A stretch of 30,280 nt of DNA, from positions 1 through 30,280 of the IMG/VR virus record IMGVR_UViG_3300009093_000101. The stretch is one strand, 5' to 3'. This document shows positions 1,424 to 30,232 of this stretch, in pieces (position 1 is the stretch's first letter; every line of letters starts with the position of its first letter). Under the pieces are notes generated by a model. That model was not told where the DNA came from and did no database searches. It worked only from the letters and a program-made list of their open reading frames with translations. Source of the DNA: a virus. The translations under genes and the position numbers were made by a program.

Positions 1424-1693
1424 TCAGGAGCCGCGGCGGGGCGCGGGAACGTCGCGCGGGCAGCGTTTGCAGTACTCGGCGAGCGCCTCAATGTCGGCGT
1501 CGGTCCAGCGCCAGGAGCGTCCGACCTTGCGAGCGGTGATCTCCTCCTCGCGCGCCTTCTGCTCAAGCCAATAGGCGGACACGGCGTAGCCGGTCATCTC
1601 CGACACCTGCTCGGCGGTGTAGAAGACCGGCTTGATCGCAGACGCAGGGGCGTGGCTTTCGAGCGCGCCAGCAGAAACAGGGCCCTTACTCAT
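1424..1693 (-). CDS. Excisionase-like helix-turn-helix protein (Xis/MerR-type)
   Basis: An 89 aa protein with the layout of a short MerR-like (HTH_17) excisionase. Residues about 22-40 (KPVFYTAEQVSEMTGYAVS) form the first helix-turn-helix, followed by a wing-like segment about 53-65 (ITARKVGRSWRWTDADIEAL), which matches the family's '..RKVGRsWRwt..DI' pattern. These proteins bend attachment-site DNA and bias a tyrosine integrase towards excision. It lies in the early lytic direction just after the Cro-like gene, the right place for a recombination directionality factor acting with the integrase at 3332-4678. The basic tail (KRCPRDVPAPRRGS) may add DNA contacts. No strong ribosome-binding site precedes the ATG, so translation may be weak. 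A plain transcription regulator is the alternative. Confidence 0.8.
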   Translation of the reverse strand: MSKGPVSAGALESHAPASAIKPVFYTAEQVSEMTGYAVSAYWLEQKAREEEITARKVGRSWRWTDADIEALAEYCKRCPRDVPAPRRGS

Positions 1694-1772
1694 TGCCGAG
1701 GCCTGCGCGGGCGTGTAGCACTAATTGAGGGGGTCTCGCTCCGGTCTGCACGGTCGGCGCGAGCTGCCGTGG

Positions 1773-2006
1773 TCACCGCGGCTCCGGGTAGGTGATGACG
1801 TCGAACGGCGCGCCGATGGCCTCGGCGAGCTTCTCGAGCGTCTCCCGCTGGGCGCCGCGCTGGTTCCGTTCGAGCCGAGACAGAAACTGCCTGGTGACAC
1901 CGATATGGACTGCGACCTGTTCAAGCGAGAGTCCCGCGCGGATACGCAGCTCGCGGATCGCGGGCCCGTGTGCTTTGAGGTCGGGAGCGACCGTGGGCTG
2001 AAGCAT
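1773..2006 (-). CDS. Small XRE-family HTH regulator (Cro-like)
   Basis: About 77 aa, almost entirely one XRE/lambda-repressor-type helix-turn-helix domain: residues about 15-65 contain IRELRIRAGLSLEQVAVHIG, then VTRQFLSRLERNQRGA and ETLEKLAEAIG. It has no dimerisation or cleavage domain, as expected for a Cro-type protein. It is the first gene of the minus-strand operon that continues with the excisionase, and is divergent from the larger XRE gene at 2168. I placed the start at ATG 2006 because copies of the GGCACCA repeat lie immediately upstream (2008-2026). ATG at 2027 (residues MVPSVVP) is also in frame and neither has a ribosome-binding site, so leaderless translation is possible. The Cro role is inferred from size and position. 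Confidence 0.75.
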   Translation of the reverse strand: MLQPTVAPDLKAHGPAIRELRIRAGLSLEQVAVHIGVTRQFLSRLERNQRGAQRETLEKLAEAIGAPFDVITYPEPR

Positions 2007-2007
2007 G

Positions 2008-2175
2008 GGCACCACGCTAGGCACCATTTGAAGCTTGGTCAAGCATCAAGTGGTGCGCATGAGGCACCAAGTAAAGCGCCAGGGGTGCGCCACGGTTGTA
2101 CGCAGGCACCAATTGACCACTCGAACGAGAGCACACGATGAGGTCACAGGCATGGAGGCTGCCTAAAATGGTGCC
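2008..2175. promoter_or_regulatory. Divergent switch region with repeated GGCACCA / TGGTGCC operators
   Basis: The 7-base core occurs at 2008-2014, 2020-2026, 2063-2069 and 2105-2111 (as GGCACCA) and at 2169-2175 (as TGGTGCC); a one-base variant TGGTGCG is at 2051-2057. The copies at 2051 and 2063 face each other as an inverted repeat with a 7-base spacer, while those at 2008 and 2020 are direct repeats 12 bases apart. The sequence ATGGTGCC(C/T)AGCG is found at both edges, facing outwards, at the start region of each divergent gene. This is the expected layout of operators shared by a CI-like and a Cro-like regulator. Which protein binds which copy cannot be read from sequence. Confidence 0.65.
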
Positions 2176-2653
2176 CAGCGACGAGACAGGATGGGGCTCC
2201 GTGGGACACGATTTTGGGCGGCTTGCGGCGGCGATCGCGAAGGCGCGCCAGGCGAAAGGGTGGGGTCAGGACGACCTGATCCGGGAGAGCGGCTTGGGCC
2301 GGTCGACGATTCAGCGGCTCGAGAGCGGCCGCCAGCGAACAATGCCGAATAAGGCCACGATCCAAGCTCTTGAGCGTGCGCTCGGATGGCTGCCTGGTTC
2401 TATCGATGGCGTCCTGACGGGGGGAGTTCCTGCAAGCGCCACGTTTGATGGCCGCTTTCTGCGAGTTGACATCGATGATGCAAACGCGTTTATTCATGAC
2501 CTTGTTCGGAAGATCACAATCGAGATCGATCCTGATGCGGCGCAGTCGCGAGTGATCGCCGCCGAGGCCGTAGCAGAAGCGGCTCTTCGTGAGGCTCGAC
2601 TGCTACCCCCACTAGAGGGGAGCCAGGATGGCGACATTAGTTCGAATGAGTAA
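2168..2653 (+). CDS. XRE-family repressor (CI-like candidate), 161 aa
   Basis: Residues about 15-65 form an XRE helix-turn-helix (LAAAIAKARQAKGWGQDDLI, then ESGLGRSTIQRLESGRQRTM and ATIQALERALGW). The remaining roughly 95 residues are a charged, probably helical C-terminal part with no LexA-type Ser-Lys cleavage motif that I can see. I placed the start at ATG 2168 because GGAGG lies at 2154-2158, nine bases upstream; GTG 2201 is an alternative. It is divergent from the Cro-like gene over a repeat-filled operator region and reads towards the integrase, so it is the best candidate for the lysogeny repressor. Base composition is lower in GC at third positions than the late genes, which suggests a different origin for this module. 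Confidence 0.75.
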   Translation: MVPSDETGWGSVGHDFGRLAAAIAKARQAKGWGQDDLIRESGLGRSTIQRLESGRQRTMPNKATIQALERALGWLPGSIDGVLTGGVPASATFDGRFLRVDIDDANAFIHDLVRKITIEIDPDAAQSRVIAAEAVAEAALREARLLPPLEGSQDGDISSNE

Positions 2654-2750
2654 TTATCTGCGCTAAATACTGGCGCAACCTGGCGCCGGTGACTATTGTC
2701 AGAGCTCTCTCAGGAGGCGATCTCACTCGGGGACGACCTATGGGGGAGAA

Positions 2751-2954
2751 GTGCGTCATGGGCAGCAACATATTGGTTCGGCAACGGTTATCTTTGCCGA
2801 ACTTGGCCCGGGTATTCGTAGCCTCCGATACCCGCTGCCGGATGGAACGTGCGCCATCGTGTTGAACACGGATACGGTCCTGTCTTCGACCGATCTGCCG
2901 CGCCAGCGCGATACGTCAGGTATGAATCCTGACAAGAGGGCTTCGAAGCCCTGA
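2751..2954 (+). CDS. Possible small protein, 67 aa, unknown function
   Basis: The GTG start is preceded by a G-rich sequence (GGGGGAGAA) that could serve as a close-set ribosome-binding site. The protein has a beta-looking core (TVIFAELGPGIRSLRYPLPD, then GTCAIVLNTDTVLS). This faintly resembles the N-terminal part of ImmA/IrrE-type proteins that often follow phage repressors, but the HExxH metal site is absent, so that role cannot be supported. Third positions are moderately AT-rich, like the repressor upstream. A strong hairpin follows at 2965-2994. It may also be a non-coding gap. Confidence 0.4.
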   Translation: MRHGQQHIGSATVIFAELGPGIRSLRYPLPDGTCAIVLNTDTVLSSTDLPRQRDTSGMNPDKRASKP

Positions 2955-2964
2955 ATCCCTGCGC

Positions 2965-2994
2965 ATCGAGCCGCCACGCGGGCGGCGGCTCGAT
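2965..2994. terminator. Hairpin terminator between repressor region and integrase operon
   Basis: An 11-base perfect stem, ATCGAGCCGCC (2965-2975) with GGCGGCTCGAT (2984-2994), encloses an 8-base loop. No T-tract follows, which is usual in high-GC actinobacteria. It would separate the repressor transcript from the arm-protein and integrase genes starting at 3023. Confidence 0.6.
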
Positions 2995-3022
2995 CGCGCC
3001 CATCTCACATCAGGAGCGACTG

Positions 3023-3328
3023 ATGCATGCACAGAAACTACCCAACGGCCGCTGGGCCGCGCGGTACAAAACGCCAGACGGGCGCCACCATCGGACAGCG
3101 GGTCATCGCACGCGGGCCGAGGCTTTGGCGGCCGGGGCGGCCAAACAGGACCTGGACGCCTACGTCTTCCCCGAAGGCGAAGAAGGTGACGTCTACTACG
3201 TCGGCCGGTATTGGACCCCGGAGGGCTGGAAGGAGACCCCTGACGGCTTCGACACCGAGGAGGACGCCCTCGCCGAAGCCCAGGAACTCCAGCGGACAGC
3301 GCGCGCCGGCGCGCGGCCGGGCGTGTGA
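3023..3328 (+). CDS. Small protein with two integrase-arm-like DNA-binding units
   Basis: 101 aa; ATG with AGGAG at 3012-3016, six bases upstream. Residues about 8-43 (GRWAARYKTPDGRHHRTAGH, then a helix RAEALAAGAAKQDL) and about 56-91 (YYVGRYWTPEGWKETPDGFD, then EEDALAEAQELQ) look like two copies of one beta-beta-beta-helix unit. The same unit is seen a third time at residues 12-47 of the integrase three bases downstream. This is the AP2-like/arm-binding fold that tyrosine integrases use on arm-type sites. The protein has no catalytic domain, so I infer an accessory role: binding arm sites, helping the integrase or tuning direction. A decayed integrase N-terminus is the alternative, but the good ribosome-binding site and clean stop argue for a real gene. 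Confidence 0.7.
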   Translation: MHAQKLPNGRWAARYKTPDGRHHRTAGHRTRAEALAAGAAKQDLDAYVFPEGEEGDVYYVGRYWTPEGWKETPDGFDTEEDALAEAQELQRTARAGARPGV

Positions 3329-3331
3329 GGC

Positions 3332-4678
3332 GTGGCGTCGGCGGAGAAGCGCGGCAAGGGCAAGCGGCCGTGGCGGGCGCGCTACAAGAAACCGGACGGC
3401 ACCTGGGGTAGCGAGCCGGGCTTCGCGACGAAGGCTGCGGCGATCAAGTGGGGCAACGACCGCGAGGCGGATATCCGGGCGCGCCGCTATGTAGATCCGC
3501 GCAGCGGCACGATCACCCTGGACGACTGGTGGGACAAGTGGCTGCCGGTGCAGGACTACTCGCCGGATTCGCTCGCGAGTACCAAGAGCGTCTACAAGTG
3601 CCACCTGCAGCCTTGGCGTGGCGACCGGCCGATCGCTGAGATCAGCCTCATCGATGTGCAGGGCCTGAAGAAGGAGAAGGCCGCGGCCTACTCGGAGTCT
3701 CTCGTCGGGCACATCATGAGCGTGCTCCGGATGCTCATGGAAGACGCGGTCGCGGACCAGCGTCTGCAGTTTTCGCCGATGCCGCCCGCGCGCCGGCGGC
3801 GCGGCTCGAAGCGTCAGGAGGTGAAGGGCCGCGTGCGGCGCGCTGGTGTGGCGCTGGAGTTCAAGACGGTTCTCGCGCTGGCGGCCCGGCTGCCGTCGGC
3901 CGGCGTCCTCGGACCGATGATGGCGATCGCGCTGATTGTGTCGGTGTTCACGGGGATGCGGTGGGGCGAGTGCTTCGGAATGCAGCGCAAGTACCTGATG
4001 CTGATGCCGGCCGTAGACGACCAGCCGGCGTCCGGGTGGTACATCATCGACGACGATGAGGGCTCCCTGCACTGTCCCACGGGCGGCAAGCCGTACCTCG
4101 GGCCGCCGAAGGAGTATCGGGGCCGCACGGTTGAGCTACCTGCGTTTCTGGTCGAGATCCTGCTGATCTACATGGCGTCGCTGCCGCCGGATCAGGAGCT
4201 GCTGTTCACGACCAGAAAGGGCGAAATGCTCTATCGGCGTGGCAGCCACTACGACGCGTGGCGGCGGGCCCGTGACGGCTGGCCAGGCGCCAGCAAGGCG
4301 AATCAGCCGGAGCTGAAGGTCGCCGCCGCGCCGATCTGCCCCGGGGTTCACTGGCACGATCTGCGTCACACGGCGAAGACGTGGACCGCTGAGGACGGTG
4401 TTCCGGCGCCGGCGCGTGATGAGCGGTTCGGCCATCAGGCGAAGGGCGACGTCGTTCGCGGCGATCGCGGAGGCATGGACAACGTGTATGTGCACCCGAC
4501 GCCCCTGATGCGGGCCCAGCTGCTGAAGGGGCTGGAGCGCCGGTGGGAGTCCGAGCCTGTAGCCACAGCAGCTCTCATGGAGTCGATCTCCCGTTTCTTC
4601 CCCAGTCGATCTCCACGACCGCATGTGGGGAGCGGCAGGGAAGCGGCAGGCTACGAGCGGAGGGCAGGAGACCAGTGA
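3332..4678 (+). CDS. int: Tyrosine-family site-specific integrase
   Basis: 448 aa phage integrase that joins attP to the host attB and, with an excisionase, reverses this. It has three parts: an arm-binding N-terminus (residues about 12-47, RPWRARYKKPDGTW and ATKAAAIKWGNDREA), a core-binding SAM-like domain (about 62-140, with TLDDWWDKWLP), and the catalytic domain (about 175-400). The catalytic residues are R210 (TGMRWGE), H342 and R345 (HDLRHT), H368 (RFGHQ) and Y386 (DNVYVHP). The GTG start lies 3 bases after the stop of the two-unit arm protein, so the two are co-transcribed. The last 40 residues after the tyrosine domain (SRFFPSRSPRPHVGS onwards) are not typical of the fold and may be sequence acquired at the attachment region. 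The gene is intact. Confidence 0.95.
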   Translation: MASAEKRGKGKRPWRARYKKPDGTWGSEPGFATKAAAIKWGNDREADIRARRYVDPRSGTITLDDWWDKWLPVQDYSPDSLASTKSVYKCHLQPWRGDRPIAEISLIDVQGLKKEKAAAYSESLVGHIMSVLRMLMEDAVADQRLQFSPMPPARRRRGSKRQEVKGRVRRAGVALEFKTVLALAARLPSAGVLGPMMAIALIVSVFTGMRWGECFGMQRKYLMLMPAVDDQPASGWYIIDDDEGSLHCPTGGKPYLGPPKEYRGRTVELPAFLVEILLIYMASLPPDQELLFTTRKGEMLYRRGSHYDAWRRARDGWPGASKANQPELKVAAAPICPGVHWHDLRHTAKTWTAEDGVPAPARDERFGHQAKGDVVRGDRGGMDNVYVHPTPLMRAQLLKGLERRWESEPVATAALMESISRFFPSRSPRPHVGSGREAAGYERRAGDQ

Positions 4679-4740
4679 GCCGCGAGAGACCCGGATCTAC
4701 CGGACGCCCCAGGTCACGGGCGCCTGTGCTGCAAGACGTG

Positions 4741-4872
4741 ACGGAGAACTACTCCCCGGCTCAGGCGGTCGAGCTGTCCGGCTTCTCGCCCAACGCACAC
4801 CGGTTCTACGAGCGGCTCGGCTTCGTAGGAGCGGTGACCCGGCCAGGAACGATCTTCAATCACTCTCTGTGA
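4741..4872 (+). pseudogene. 3' end of a GNAT acetyltransferase-like gene (fragment)
   Basis: The frame closing at 4872 reads AVELSGFSPNAHRFYERLGF followed by VGAVTRPGTIF. This is the typical C-terminal motif of GNAT N-acetyltransferases (N-A-x-R-F-Y-E-R-L-G-F, the last acetyl-CoA-binding helix and strand). Third positions are strongly G/C, as in real coding sequence. Upstream the frame is not GNAT-like and overlaps the integrase end, and there is no start with a ribosome-binding site, so only the 3' end of the gene is present. It lies immediately after the integrase, where an attachment site is expected, so it may be the piece of target gene carried by attP or left at a prophage junction. Confidence 0.5.
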
Positions 4873-4879
4873 CCTTGGG

Positions 4880-4920
4880 GTTCGGTGGCTCTCGATGGCG
4901 TTCGTTCGCGTTCGCTGGCT
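4880..4920. repeat. GTTCG direct repeats, candidate integrase arm sites
   Basis: GTTCGGTGGCT (4880-4890) and GTTCGCTGGCT (4910-4920) are near-identical 11-mers 30 bases apart, with two more GTTCG units at 4900-4904 and 4904-4908 between them. Direct repeats of about this size beside the integrase gene are what arm-type binding sites look like, but no function can be read directly. Confidence 0.4.
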
Positions 4921-4940
4921 ACCGGGCCACAAGATCGTTT

Positions 4941-4972
4941 CCCATATTCTCCCCACAACGTCTTGATATGGG
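4941..4972. repeat. Inverted repeat CCCATAT...ATATGGG
   Basis: CCCATAT (4941-4947) and ATATGGG (4966-4972) flank an 18-base interval in a locally AT-richer patch of an otherwise GC-rich region. It could be a core or accessory recombination site, or a regulator site. The stretch 4873-5124 contains no convincing gene; besides this repeat it holds the GTTCG repeats and the hairpin at 4975-5003. Confidence 0.35.
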
Positions 4973-4974
4973 AG

Positions 4975-5003
4975 GAGCCCCTGTCCTTGCCAGACAGGGG
5001 CTC
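4975..5003. terminator. Hairpin terminator downstream of the integrase
   Basis: A perfect 11-base stem (GAGCCCCTGTC at 4975-4985 with GACAGGGGCTC at 4993-5003) and a 7-base loop. It is placed to stop transcription coming from the integrase and, from the other side, from the three small genes at 5125-5764. Confidence 0.65.
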
Positions 5004-5124
5004 GCTCTCGCCGGGGCTCTCTCAGGAAGCGGTTCCTACCCCGGCGACCGTGGGGTGAGAAGTGGTGGCATCAATACGTACCCGCACGGAAGTTCATGTA
5101 TTCAGTTGCAGCCTCGGCGGATCG

Positions 5125-5845: not shown

Positions 5846-5877
5846 GTCACCATCGGGTGCTGACAGCAGGAGTAAGG

Positions 5878-7044
5878 ATGGACGATCTCGGCGTTGGCCC
5901 GCGCGTCAAGAAACTGCGCATCGCTCGCGGGATGACGCAGCAGCAGCTCGCAGACGGCCTCGGGTTCAGCCTCGGTTGGGTCAAGAGCTTCGAGGCCGGA
6001 GATAGACAGTCCGACCCCAGATTCAGTCTGCTGAGGCAGCTGGCGTCCGTGCTCGAAGTCCCTGTGCAGGCCCTCGTCGACGAGGAGCCCCTCGAGGCGA
6101 ACAGCGTCGACGACGTCCGCGCCGCCCTGCTCGCTCCAGCTCCACGGACCGATCCCGGTGCCCTGGACGTAGCTGCCGAAGCCTCATACGGGCATCTCGC
6201 CTTCCAGGCGGGGCGCTGGCGCGACGTCGTCGCCCGTCTTCCGCGGCTCATCGATGCCGCGCGCGCCGGCGAAGCAAGTTCAGGCGAGCCCCGCGCGCTG
6301 CAGCAGCTGGCCGACGTCTGCCACCTGGCCGCGATCACGCTGACCAAACTCGGGGACACTGCGGGCGGCTGGGCGGCGGGCGATGAGGCCGTGCTGCGGG
6401 CCGAGGGAGCCGGTGACGCCATCGAGATCGCGCTGTCGGCACAGAGCGCCATCTACGCCGCCACGGCGGCCGCGCGCCCCGAGATCGGCCTGGACCTCAC
6501 GCATCGCATCGTGGACGGCGTCGGCGGCGAGCTCGCCGATCGTGGCGAGGCGGGCCTCTCCGCGCTGGGCATCGTCTACCTCAAGGGCGCCTACGCCGCG
6601 GCGGCCGCGGGCGATGCAGAAGCGGCGGCCGCCATGATCGAAGAGGGGCGGCGGGCCGCTGCCGAGCTCCCTCTGGATTCGAACTACCTGCTTACGAACT
6701 TCAACGCCACCAACGTGCTGATCTACGAGGCGTCGATCCTCGGCGACCTGGGCGAGTACGACCTCGCCATCCAGGTGGCCACGCGGATCCATCCCGACGC
6801 GTTCGCCGCCCTCTCACGCGAGCGCCGGATCCACCACCTGGTCGACACTGCGCGCTCGGCGCAAGGGGCCGGCCGCCCCGACAGTGCGCTTCGGCTGCTG
6901 CTCCAGGCCGAGCGCGACGACCCGCAGAACATCCGCACCTGGGCGCTCTCGCGGACTGTGATCCTCGCGCTGCTGAAGGGACGGCAGCCGACAGATGGTC
7001 GCGGGTTGCACGGGCTGGCGCGACGCGCTGGAGTAGCCGGGTGA
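5878..7044 (+). CDS. XRE-family regulator with TPR-like C-terminal domain
   Basis: 388 aa. The start is ATG 5878, with AGGAG at 5868-5872. Residues about 6-65 form an XRE helix-turn-helix (RVKKLRIARGMTQQQLADGL, then FSLGWVKSFEAGDRQSD). The rest is an all-helical, Ala-rich array of about 320 residues with paired helices (AAEASYGHLAFQAGRWRDVV; LADVCHLAAITLTKLGDTAG; LLTNFNATNVLIYEASILGD), typical of TPR-type sensor domains that bind peptides or other ligands. The stop overlaps the start of the flavoprotein gene (GTGA), so the two are one operon. This regulator-flavoprotein pairing is common on actinobacterial chromosomes and mobile elements; here it sits in the likely conversion zone of the phage. 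Confidence 0.85.
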   Translation: MDDLGVGPRVKKLRIARGMTQQQLADGLGFSLGWVKSFEAGDRQSDPRFSLLRQLASVLEVPVQALVDEEPLEANSVDDVRAALLAPAPRTDPGALDVAAEASYGHLAFQAGRWRDVVARLPRLIDAARAGEASSGEPRALQQLADVCHLAAITLTKLGDTAGGWAAGDEAVLRAEGAGDAIEIALSAQSAIYAATAAARPEIGLDLTHRIVDGVGGELADRGEAGLSALGIVYLKGAYAAAAAGDAEAAAAMIEEGRRAAAELPLDSNYLLTNFNATNVLIYEASILGDLGEYDLAIQVATRIHPDAFAALSRERRIHHLVDTARSAQGAGRPDSALRLLLQAERDDPQNIRTWALSRTVILALLKGRQPTDGRGLHGLARRAGVAG

Positions 7045-7607
7045 CTGGAATACCGACTGCGCCCGTCCTGTACATCGTCGGCTGCGCCGCGCCGCCCGTC
7101 CTGCAGATCGCCGACGCGATCGGGCAGGCCCAGGAGCGCGGGTGGGACGTGTGCCTGATCCTGACACCGACGGCGGCGCTCTGGCTCGAGGAGCACCTCG
7201 AGAAGCTCGCCGATCTCACCGGCCACCCGGTACGGCAGCGCTACAAGGTGCCCGGACAACCCGACGTCCTGCCGCCGGCCGCCGCGGTCCTGGTCGCGCC
7301 GGCCACCTTCAACGTGATCAACAAATGGGCGTCGGGCCATGCGGACACGTTAGCCCTCGGCCTGGTCACGGAGGGCATCGGCAAAGGGATGCCGCTGGTC
7401 GCACTCCCGCACCTGAACAGCTGGCAAGCGGCGCACTCGGCGTTCCCGCGCTCCGTCGACCAGCTGCGCGCCGATGGGGTCCAGGTGCTCATCGAGGAGG
7501 CGGACGGGAACGTCCCGCACATGCCGGGGGCACCCGGGCCGCGGCCGCCGTTTCCATGGGCGCTCGGGCTGGATGCGCTCGAGGGTGTGCGGCGATCCCG
7601 GATATGA
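7041..7607 (+). CDS. HFCD-family flavoprotein
   Basis: 188 aa with the Rossmann-like fold of the flavoprotein/HFCD family (relatives of EpiD and of phosphopantothenoylcysteine decarboxylase), which binds FMN. The N-terminal strand and turn VLYIVGCAAPPVLQIADAI and the segment APATFNVINKWASGHADTLA carry the family's cofactor-binding PA(T/S)xNxxNK pattern, followed by PLVALPHLNSWQAAHSAFPR. The substrate is unknown. The GTG start overlaps the stop of the XRE-TPR gene. The gene ends inside the left arm of the 25-base hairpin at 7599-7653. A redox or decarboxylation role in small-molecule metabolism of the lysogen is possible but is inference. Confidence 0.85.
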   Translation: MTGIPTAPVLYIVGCAAPPVLQIADAIGQAQERGWDVCLILTPTAALWLEEHLEKLADLTGHPVRQRYKVPGQPDVLPPAAAVLVAPATFNVINKWASGHADTLALGLVTEGIGKGMPLVALPHLNSWQAAHSAFPRSVDQLRADGVQVLIEEADGNVPHMPGAPGPRPPFPWALGLDALEGVRRSRI

Positions 7608-28093: not shown

Positions 28094-29719
28094 CTACATC
28101 ACCACCATCCGGCTGTCTTTCTTCGGCTTGAGCAGTCCCGCTGTGATCGCGTCGCGCCTGGCTTCCCAGGACAAGCAGCCGGTCATCGCCAAGTCGATCT
28201 TCCTGGGCGAGTCGTGGCGATCTTTCTGGATCGTCCACATGGGCTTGTCGAACTCATCGCGGACACGGGCGTCCCGTTTGACGGCGTTGGCGATGTGCTG
28301 GGCGTAGAGCTTGTCGCCGCTGTGGCTCAGCGATCCCTCAGTCTGCGCGGTGCGGAAGGCCCTCAGGGCGTAGGCCATCGGGCGCGGCCTGAGGGTCCAC
28401 CACTCCACGACGATCTTCGGCCCGTACTTGCCGCCCCAGGTGGCGACGGTTTCCTCCCAGTAGGGAGGGTCCGCGTAGACGCGGACGACCTTCCACTGGT
28501 CGAAGGCTCCTTCTAGGGTGGCGTGCACCTCGGCGGCTGGGACTTCCCAGTCCTCGGCTTCCTTCGGGTCCGTAGGCGCTTCCCAGGCGCCCAGCACCCA
28601 CTGATAGCCCGTCTCCAGGTGGGTGCCGATCAGTGCGGTGGCGTCCCGGAACCGGGCCCCGTCGAAGCCAACCGCGATCAGGTCCTTGTTCGGGACGATG
28701 AAGCCGGTCTTGGCGAGCTCGGTCCAGCGGTCGGCGTCGAAAGCGGCGCCCGACTTGGTGCCGCGCTGGTTCAGGAAATAACGGCGGGCGTCGGACGGGT
28801 CGGTGTCCGGTGCGCGCATGTGTCTGGCGATGGCCGGCAGGTCCATCCATCCGGCCGCGTCGCCGTAGACGTACTTCAGCGCGGGCATCAGCTGCGCGTC
28901 GTCCATCAAGTCTTCGACGTGCGGGGCCTGGCGGTGGTCGACCAGAAGGCCGCCGTCCAGGATCTTGCCGGCCTTGACGTCCTCCGCGTACTGATGCGTG
29001 GCCTCGGCGACGGACCGCTCGCCGACCGCGTACATCGTGGAGGTCTCCAGCGACCAGGGATCGGCCGCTTTGCGCTTCACCAGGTTGCGGAGCACGGTCT
29101 GGTGCATCGCCCGGGTCTCGGGCAGCACGTACAGGTGTGTCTCGTCGAAGACGCTGAAGGACTCTTTCCCGCCGTCCTTTGAGGCGCTGGAGGCGGTCGA
29201 CGGAACGATCTCGCCGCCGTCTTCGATGAAGATCCGCGAGGACGTCTGGACGTTACGGCCCAGGTCGATCGCCGGAAACTCATCGCCGGCGACGTCGACC
29301 AAGTGCTCCAGCATCACCGTGACGTTGTCGTAGGTGTTGCCGGCCTGGCCCTCCTCGGTGGCCAGGCACCGGATGAACGGATAGGTCAGCGGCCGCCCTA
29401 CCGGCTCGCCGGCGGCGTCCCAGCCATCGAACCGGCAGGGGCCGAGGGCCTCGAAGCACACCAAGGCGCCGGCGATCTCGCTCTTCGCGCGGCCTTTCGG
29501 CCGTGACAGGAAAGCCCTGTTGACCTTCCGGCGGCCGGTCTTCGGGTCGAGCTGGTAAGCCCGGACGATGAAGGCAGCCATCTCGTCGTCAATGACCAGC
29601 TTCTGTCCCTGCACGTCGCCGGGGCCGTGGCAGAGGTAGGCCTCGATCCACTCGATGGCGACGAACCCGAGCGAGACAAAGCGGTTCGGCGCCGGCCTAC
29701 GACGCGGCTTGGCCGCCAT
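28094..29719 (-). CDS. terL: Terminase large subunit
   Basis: 541 aa motor that pumps DNA into the capsid and cuts it. The ATPase domain has a Walker A-like FLSRPKGRAKSE (about 70-81) and Walker B FSVFDETHLY (D192, E193). The nuclease domain has the RNase H-like acidic sites VGFDGARFRDATALI (D353, D359) and VRVYADPPYWEET further on. The C-terminus holds GDKLYAQHIANAVKR and the RKIDLAMTGCLSWEARRDAI segment usual for actinophage TerL. It overlaps the small subunit gene by 23 bases and stops directly before the portal gene. Confidence 0.94.
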   Translation of the reverse strand: MAAKPRRRPAPNRFVSLGFVAIEWIEAYLCHGPGDVQGQKLVIDDEMAAFIVRAYQLDPKTGRRKVNRAFLSRPKGRAKSEIAGALVCFEALGPCRFDGWDAAGEPVGRPLTYPFIRCLATEEGQAGNTYDNVTVMLEHLVDVAGDEFPAIDLGRNVQTSSRIFIEDGGEIVPSTASSASKDGGKESFSVFDETHLYVLPETRAMHQTVLRNLVKRKAADPWSLETSTMYAVGERSVAEATHQYAEDVKAGKILDGGLLVDHRQAPHVEDLMDDAQLMPALKYVYGDAAGWMDLPAIARHMRAPDTDPSDARRYFLNQRGTKSGAAFDADRWTELAKTGFIVPNKDLIAVGFDGARFRDATALIGTHLETGYQWVLGAWEAPTDPKEAEDWEVPAAEVHATLEGAFDQWKVVRVYADPPYWEETVATWGGKYGPKIVVEWWTLRPRPMAYALRAFRTAQTEGSLSHSGDKLYAQHIANAVKRDARVRDEFDKPMWTIQKDRHDSPRKIDLAMTGCLSWEARRDAITAGLLKPKKDSRMVVM

Positions 29720-30152
29720 CGATGACCTTCAGCACCCTCTCGCGACGTGTGGTCGCGGCGCGGCTGGCTGCCGCGCGCTTCCGGGGTGCAGGGGCCGCGG
29801 GCTCGGCCACGGTCCAGCGCAGGCGTGCCCGGTCCGCAGCTGTCGCGCCGAGCGACGCCTCGTTGAGCCTGATCTCTGACAGCAGCTCCTTGCCCGGTGA
29901 TGCCCAGTACAGCTCGACTAGCTGGGCGAGCATGTGTAGGCGCTGCCAGTCGGTGGCCAGGAACGTGGCGGCCTGCGGCGAGGTGCGCCACGTGTCGTAC
30001 CAGGCCAGGGTCCGGCTGTCGTAGTCGTGGCCGCCGGGCAGCACGGGGGTTGGCCCGGGCGGCCCAGTCGATGGGAGGACCGTGGCGGCCGGGTCGGCGT
30101 TGCGCCGGCGTCGCTGCGCGGGGTCCTTGGGGGCGGGGCCGATACCGGCCAT
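29697..30152 (-). CDS. terS: Terminase small subunit
   Basis: 151 aa from ATG 30152, with GAGAGG upstream; an in-frame ATG at 30182 lacks a better site. It has the typical start GIGPAPKDPAQRRRRNADPA found in P27-type actinophage small terminases, then TLAWYDTWRTSPQAATFLAT and DWQRLHMLAQLVELYW, a helical DNA-recognition part, and a basic C-terminus (APRKRAAASRAATTRRERVL). It recognises packaging sites and works with the downstream large subunit. Confidence 0.88.
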   Translation of the reverse strand: MAGIGPAPKDPAQRRRRNADPAATVLPSTGPPGPTPVLPGGHDYDSRTLAWYDTWRTSPQAATFLATDWQRLHMLAQLVELYWASPGKELLSEIRLNEASLGATAADRARLRWTVAEPAAPAPRKRAAASRAATTRRERVLKVIDGGQAAS

Positions 30153-30232
30153 CGTGATCACCTCTCGATGCCGTTTCGGCACGTCGCATCAGGCCGTTGC
30201 GGCAGATGCAGGCTTCACATTGGATCTTCGTA

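Follow-up and report, generated by a model that had tools for sequence, protein, structure and literature searches.

A small protein with two integrase arm-type domains encoded directly ahead of a tyrosine integrase gene in a virus genome

Arm-binding domains let tyrosine integrases control direction. To our knowledge, these domains have so far been found as N-terminal parts of the integrase, and experiments with isolated arm domains exist for lambda Int. Small genes located just upstream of int often encode an excisionase or directionality factor, and known Xis proteins adopt a winged-helix or MerR-like fold. In Streptomyces phage RP3 and in related Streptomyces prophages, the lysogeny module follows the order repressor, small ORF, int and attP.

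A similar gene order is found in the DNA analysed here (the window), an entire IMG/VR virus record with a length of 30,280 bases and 68.5% G+C. Its lysogeny module spans 1424-4678 and is accompanied by a leftward structural operon with the terminase at 28094-29719. The integrase is of the RP3 type (27-28% identity). Its closest named relatives are those of Streptomyces phage RP3 and other actinophages, which suggests that the host is likely an actinobacterium. Unlike RP3 and the Streptomyces prophage modules, which have no stand-alone arm-domain gene beside int, the window contains a 101-aa gene with an ATG start that encodes two arm-type units. As with the arm-binding (AB) domain of tyrosine integrases (PMC8138268), both units match the arm profile and are predicted to have a beta-beta-beta-alpha fold, and unit 1 shares the R, Y, K, P, D, G, T, R and A positions. 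In contrast to the AB domain, the small protein is free of core-binding and catalytic domains, contains two copies of the unit, and its second copy is acidic. It shares its place directly ahead of int with int-adjacent excisionases but differs from them in predicted fold, and the Xis-like gene of the window lies elsewhere.

No description of stand-alone or tandem arm domains was found in the literature searched, in agreement with an initial sequence-only reading, which knew of no described system with this arrangement. A free, doubled arm protein in an int operon would be evidence that a protein other than the integrase can determine how arm sites are occupied. Such a protein would be a natural counterpart to the experiments with isolated arm domains of lambda Int, and it might help to render actinophage integrases more unidirectional. 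The features of the locus are as follows.

1424-1693 (-): Xis-like gene with MerR-type HTH_17 (phrog_1840 excisionase, E 1.9e-10)
2138-2653 (+): HTH_3 repressor-like gene, codirectional with the small gene and int
2961-2999 (+): strong RNA hairpin (-31.7 kcal/mol, z -4.0); terminator, attenuator or operator palindrome
3012-3016 (+): ribosome-binding site AGGAG, 6 nt before the ATG of the small gene (from sequence)
3023-3328 (+): two-arm-domain protein without catalytic domain (ORF, arm-domain HMM, AlphaFold2, codon usage)
3023-3151 (+): unit 1 (residues 1-43), basic, arm/AP2-like (HMM, AlphaFold2, VIA-align, charge)
3152-3313 (+): unit 2 (residues 44-97), acidic, same fold (HMM, AlphaFold2, VIA-align, charge)
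3326-3331 (+): TGA stop plus one codon, GGC; putative coupling point of small ORF and int (from sequence)
3332-4678 (+): tyrosine integrase, 448 aa, GTG start, arm domain at about 3371-3499 (phrog_1, E 3.4e-41)

Relation of the small protein to integrase arm domains

Eighty integrase loci were gathered from IMG/VR, and their N-termini were aligned with those of the window integrase and RP3, with duplicates removed. The arm-domain HMM comprises 79 integrase N-termini (78 IMG/VR loci and RP3), with the window integrase left out. In the small protein this model detects two domains, at residues 10-40 (27.3 bits) and 58-96 (15.9 bits). The protein as a whole scores 39.8 bits, compared to a maximum of 16.4 in 20,000 shuffles, and the next-best short ORF among 5,399 six-frame ORFs from the window and related loci reaches 10.8 bits. 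When scored alone, unit 1 obtains 29.9 bits (shuffle maximum 20.9) and unit 2 18.3 bits (shuffle maximum 17.2). Pairwise comparison of unit 1 with the arm of the window integrase gives a BLOSUM score of 68 (0 of 5000 shuffles), that of the two units with each other a score of 44 (p 0.001), and that of unit 2 with the window integrase arm alone a score of 39 (p 0.017). The proposal that the protein holds two copies of a unit matching the integrase N-terminus is thus borne out by HMM scores well above shuffles, and we regard an origin from an integrase arm as very probable.

BLAST of the small protein against 20 related records gave matches only at their integrase N-termini. The start of unit 1 is also integrase-like, reading MHAQKLPNGRW where the integrase of locus L012 has VAWAQKRGK-YW. 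PHROGs returned only weak matches, including the integrase family phrog_1 (E 0.23, residues 7-39), in a register identical to that of the integrase. The small protein is not recognised by Pfam, NCBIfam or PADLOC, and Pfam PF14657 matches neither the small ORF nor the window integrase.

Codon usage is coding-like only in the frame of the small ORF, with +0.21 bits per codon, compared with +0.26 for the integrase and -0.15 to -0.93 for the other five frames. The two arm-type units make up the 101-aa protein, from which catalytic and core-binding domains are absent. In the window integrase both of these domains are intact, with R210, H342/R345, H368 and Y386 identified by alignment with RP3 and other integrases. 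HMM and predicted fold hence agree with the earlier description of a catalytic-free protein with tandem arm-type domains directly upstream of int, and the ORF coordinates confirm that the two genes are 3 bases apart.

Predicted fold and charge of the two units

Structure prediction had been set beforehand as a test of the arm-domain proposal, and it returned an arm/AP2-like fold rather than an unrelated one. AlphaFold2, run with and without an alignment, predicts (beta-beta-beta-alpha)x2 with a mean pLDDT of 76. In both units, a three-stranded sheet packs on one helix. The elements are E2-5, E11-16, E22-24 and H31-41 in unit 1, and E44-48, E57-65, E68-71 and H79-97 in unit 2. In the alignment run, arm sequences were aligned to unit 1 only. 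Unit 2 was therefore predicted from its sequence alone in both runs, and its fold assignment does not depend on the evidence from homology.

VIA-align matched unit 1 to the DNA-bound AP2 domains 1gcc (Z 5.2, 1.7 Å over 42 residues) and 7et4 (Z 5.2, 1.5 Å over 41 residues), middling Z values that alone would prove little, and unit 2 to dsRBD-type beta-beta-beta-alpha structures. With Z values of this size, the likeness of unit 1 to the AP2/ERF domain of AtERF1 (1gcc), which belongs to a family of plant transcription factors, is a resemblance of fold only. VIA-align does not list any integrase arm domain, which is uninformative either way. The top Foldseek match in BFVD, the viral set, is a phage integrase (prob 1.00, E 0.084, 2.4 Å), and Foldseek against the PDB gave no significant match for the small protein.

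Although the units share a fold, they are not equivalent. The net charge of the arm region is +5 in unit 1 and -6 in unit 2, compared to +9 in the window integrase and 0 to +10 in 76 integrase arm domains. Unit 1 retains most of the basic arm-domain positions, but has His in place of F31 and Ala in place of the aromatic residue 40, at two core positions that hardly vary. Unit 2 retains the fold residues R17, Y18, P21, G23, G30, F31, T33 and A37, but most of the basic ones are gone. At position 34, where 75 of 78 integrases have Lys or Arg, unit 1 has Arg and unit 2 has Glu. Judged by these residues, unit 1 is the likely DNA-binding candidate, and unit 2 would probably not be expected to bind DNA. 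The earlier view of two like arm domains therefore holds for their type but not for their equivalence. The suggestion that both could bind DNA and bridge arm sites finds no support in the acidic charge of unit 2 and the loss of its conserved Lys/Arg positions, which make such bridging unlikely.

Gene order, translation signals and relatives

In RP3 and the prophage relatives, Xis-like and HTH genes point leftward, while the repressor, a variable slot gene and int point rightward. The Xis-like gene of the window has similar genes at the same place in two relatives (L133 and L134), and its sequence match makes it the strongest candidate for the actual directionality factor. Five GGCACCA/TGGTGCC sites, of only 11 in the window, are located at 2006-2177 between the divergently transcribed HTH genes and are likely repressor operators.

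In relatives, cargo genes occupy the slot between repressor and int. In close relatives these are mostly membrane proteins (L007-L014), and in L015-L017 and L020, which are Streptomyces-type prophages, they belong to a family of small soluble ORFs (MCVHVF...). None of the relatives compared has an arm-domain gene in this position. In the window, the slot (2654-3022) also contains a 67-aa ORF at 2751-2954.

Int may depend on the small gene for its translation. Its GTG has no Shine-Dalgarno match of at least 4 bases at a distance of 3-12 nt, while most of 16 relatives have one. Given this lack and the stop and start only 3 nt apart, translation of Int is probably coupled to that of the small gene, in which case the small protein would be at least as abundant as Int. 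The integrase starts of the relatives align with the GTG at 3332, which marks the small ORF as an added gene. Upstream, the hairpin contains an 11-bp perfect inverted repeat at 2965-2994, which did not occur in shuffles. A comparable stem upstream of int was found in only one relative, L018. No sigma-70-type promoters were found.

The search for further genomes with this gene next to int, which had been proposed at the outset, yielded none. No homologue of the small protein was found in IMG/VR, in GTDB genome contigs, or by tblastn against phages and plasmids; the GTDB scan used exact 8-residue patterns only, so that homologues of greater divergence may exist. In IMG/VR, where many records are fragments, wider scans with arm-motif alignments returned no homologue either, and neither did syntenic searches via the repressor and the Xis-like gene. 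When the arm profile was searched against 91 virus records, 41 related through the terminase and 50 through the integrase and including some short fragments, every match fell in an ORF of at least 367 codons; among the terminase relatives, matches occurred in four records only.

In the relatives RP3 and VWB, attP lies downstream of int, and by analogy the same may be expected for the window. No repeats better than those of shuffles were found as arm sites in 4570-5020, where dinucleotide shuffles equalled or exceeded the best repeat in 48% of cases. An inverted pair of TGTGGGGAG at 4624 (+) and 4949 (-) looked attractive but was rejected as evidence for arm-type sites, as shuffles were as good. 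Further downstream, at 4736-4872, a short frame has a GNAT acetyltransferase-like end (NAHRFYERLGFV...; weak Pfam match, E 0.07). It may be that attP rebuilds the 3' terminus of an acetyltransferase gene of the host.

Possible roles of the small protein

We tentatively favour a model in which the duplicated 5' end of int has turned into an accessory factor or antagonist of Int, with unit 1 acting on arm sites and unit 2 acting as a contact. Here, the arm-coding 5' end of an int gene would have been duplicated and its link to the catalytic part subsequently lost. The small protein and Int would be made from one message, with the small protein upstream and in at least the amount of Int, since Int seems to be translated by coupling. 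Unit 1 would bind arm-type sites near attP or attL/attR, and the acidic unit 2, which would not bind DNA, may be a spacer or a contact surface, for example towards the basic arm domain of Int or towards itself. Within the lysogenic programme, Int would thereby be modulated at its arm sites, so that integration is helped or limited and Xis-independent excision is kept low. Any such part in the direction or timing of recombination, as put forward in the initial reading, would be played in a phage that has a separate Xis-like gene. The orientation of the small gene, which runs with the repressor and int and opposite to the Xis-like gene, counts for such a modulator. Against it count the two altered core positions of unit 1, the failure of the repeats to stand out as arm sites, the unrelated cargo in the same slot of relatives, and the fact that this is a single example with no homologue, hence with no evidence of selection over time. 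A more specific model, which we consider doubtful, is that of a dedicated, catalysis-free subunit of the intasome, in which a DNA-binding arm is joined to an acidic, Int-docking arm-like domain. Through translational coupling this subunit would be in excess over Int and would set integration versus excision. If so, the phage would set direction with a protein carved from its own integrase and not with Xis alone.

Alternatively, unit 1 may bind upstream of the operon, for example at the 2965-2994 palindrome, and control transcription of int, while contributing little to the recombination complex. The hairpin is only 24-62 nt ahead of the small gene, and integrases repress int where arm sites overlap its promoter, as in KplE1, whose IntS represses its own gene through arm sites (PMC2951348). 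However, the palindrome may be just the terminator of the repressor transcript, and with attP downstream of int in RP3 and VWB, the arm sites need not overlap the promoter. We therefore regard such an autoregulator as unlikely. We give the same low weight to a non-functional relic, in which a decaying duplicate of the int 5' end would serve solely to deliver ribosomes to the int start. The absence of homologues in the collections searched, the loss of conserved arm residues in unit 2 and parts of unit 1, and the frame shared with int would fit decay, but the frame is open, its codon usage coding-like and its ribosome site good. In addition, both units fold in silico, and the charge loss of unit 2 is directional, towards acidic, rather than random.

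The shared frame also bears on whether the small ORF is the 5' end of one longer, three-arm integrase, either produced by TGA read-through or split by a recent nonsense change or a sequencing error. From the start of the small ORF to the end of int, the TGA at 3326-3328 is the only stop. This frame is compatible with a decayed integrase 5' end, the case that was named at the outset as counting against the initial reading, but a shared frame has a chance of 1 in 3, no integrase with more than one arm domain occurs among the relatives, and their starts coincide with the window GTG. Taken together, this makes a three-arm integrase very improbable. An excisionase or directionality factor, as the position directly upstream of int would suggest, appears slightly more remote still. 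The small protein has no match to an excisionase family (HTH_17, phrog_1840 etc.), its predicted fold is arm-like and unlike that of known Xis proteins, and its gene runs with the repressor and int, while the better candidate (phrog_1840) is located in the divergent operon, as in relatives.

Three further observations concern other genes. At 5857-7607, the gene of an XRE-type regulator that has an extended C-terminal portion (phrog_5823, E 2e-54) is followed, with a 4-base overlap, by a flavoprotein-domain gene (PF02441), a pair that is odd in a phage and perhaps cargo. For the gene at 29697-30182, the PHROG match is to family 226, 'minor tail protein' (E 1.6e-29), a label that may be wrong, since the gene directly precedes that of the large terminase and has a weak match to a family of small terminases. 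Finally, an integrase of the window type in Streptomonospora phiM2 (L006:2974-4671) carries a LacI-like HTH segment within its open reading frame, and its annotation reads LacI regulator.
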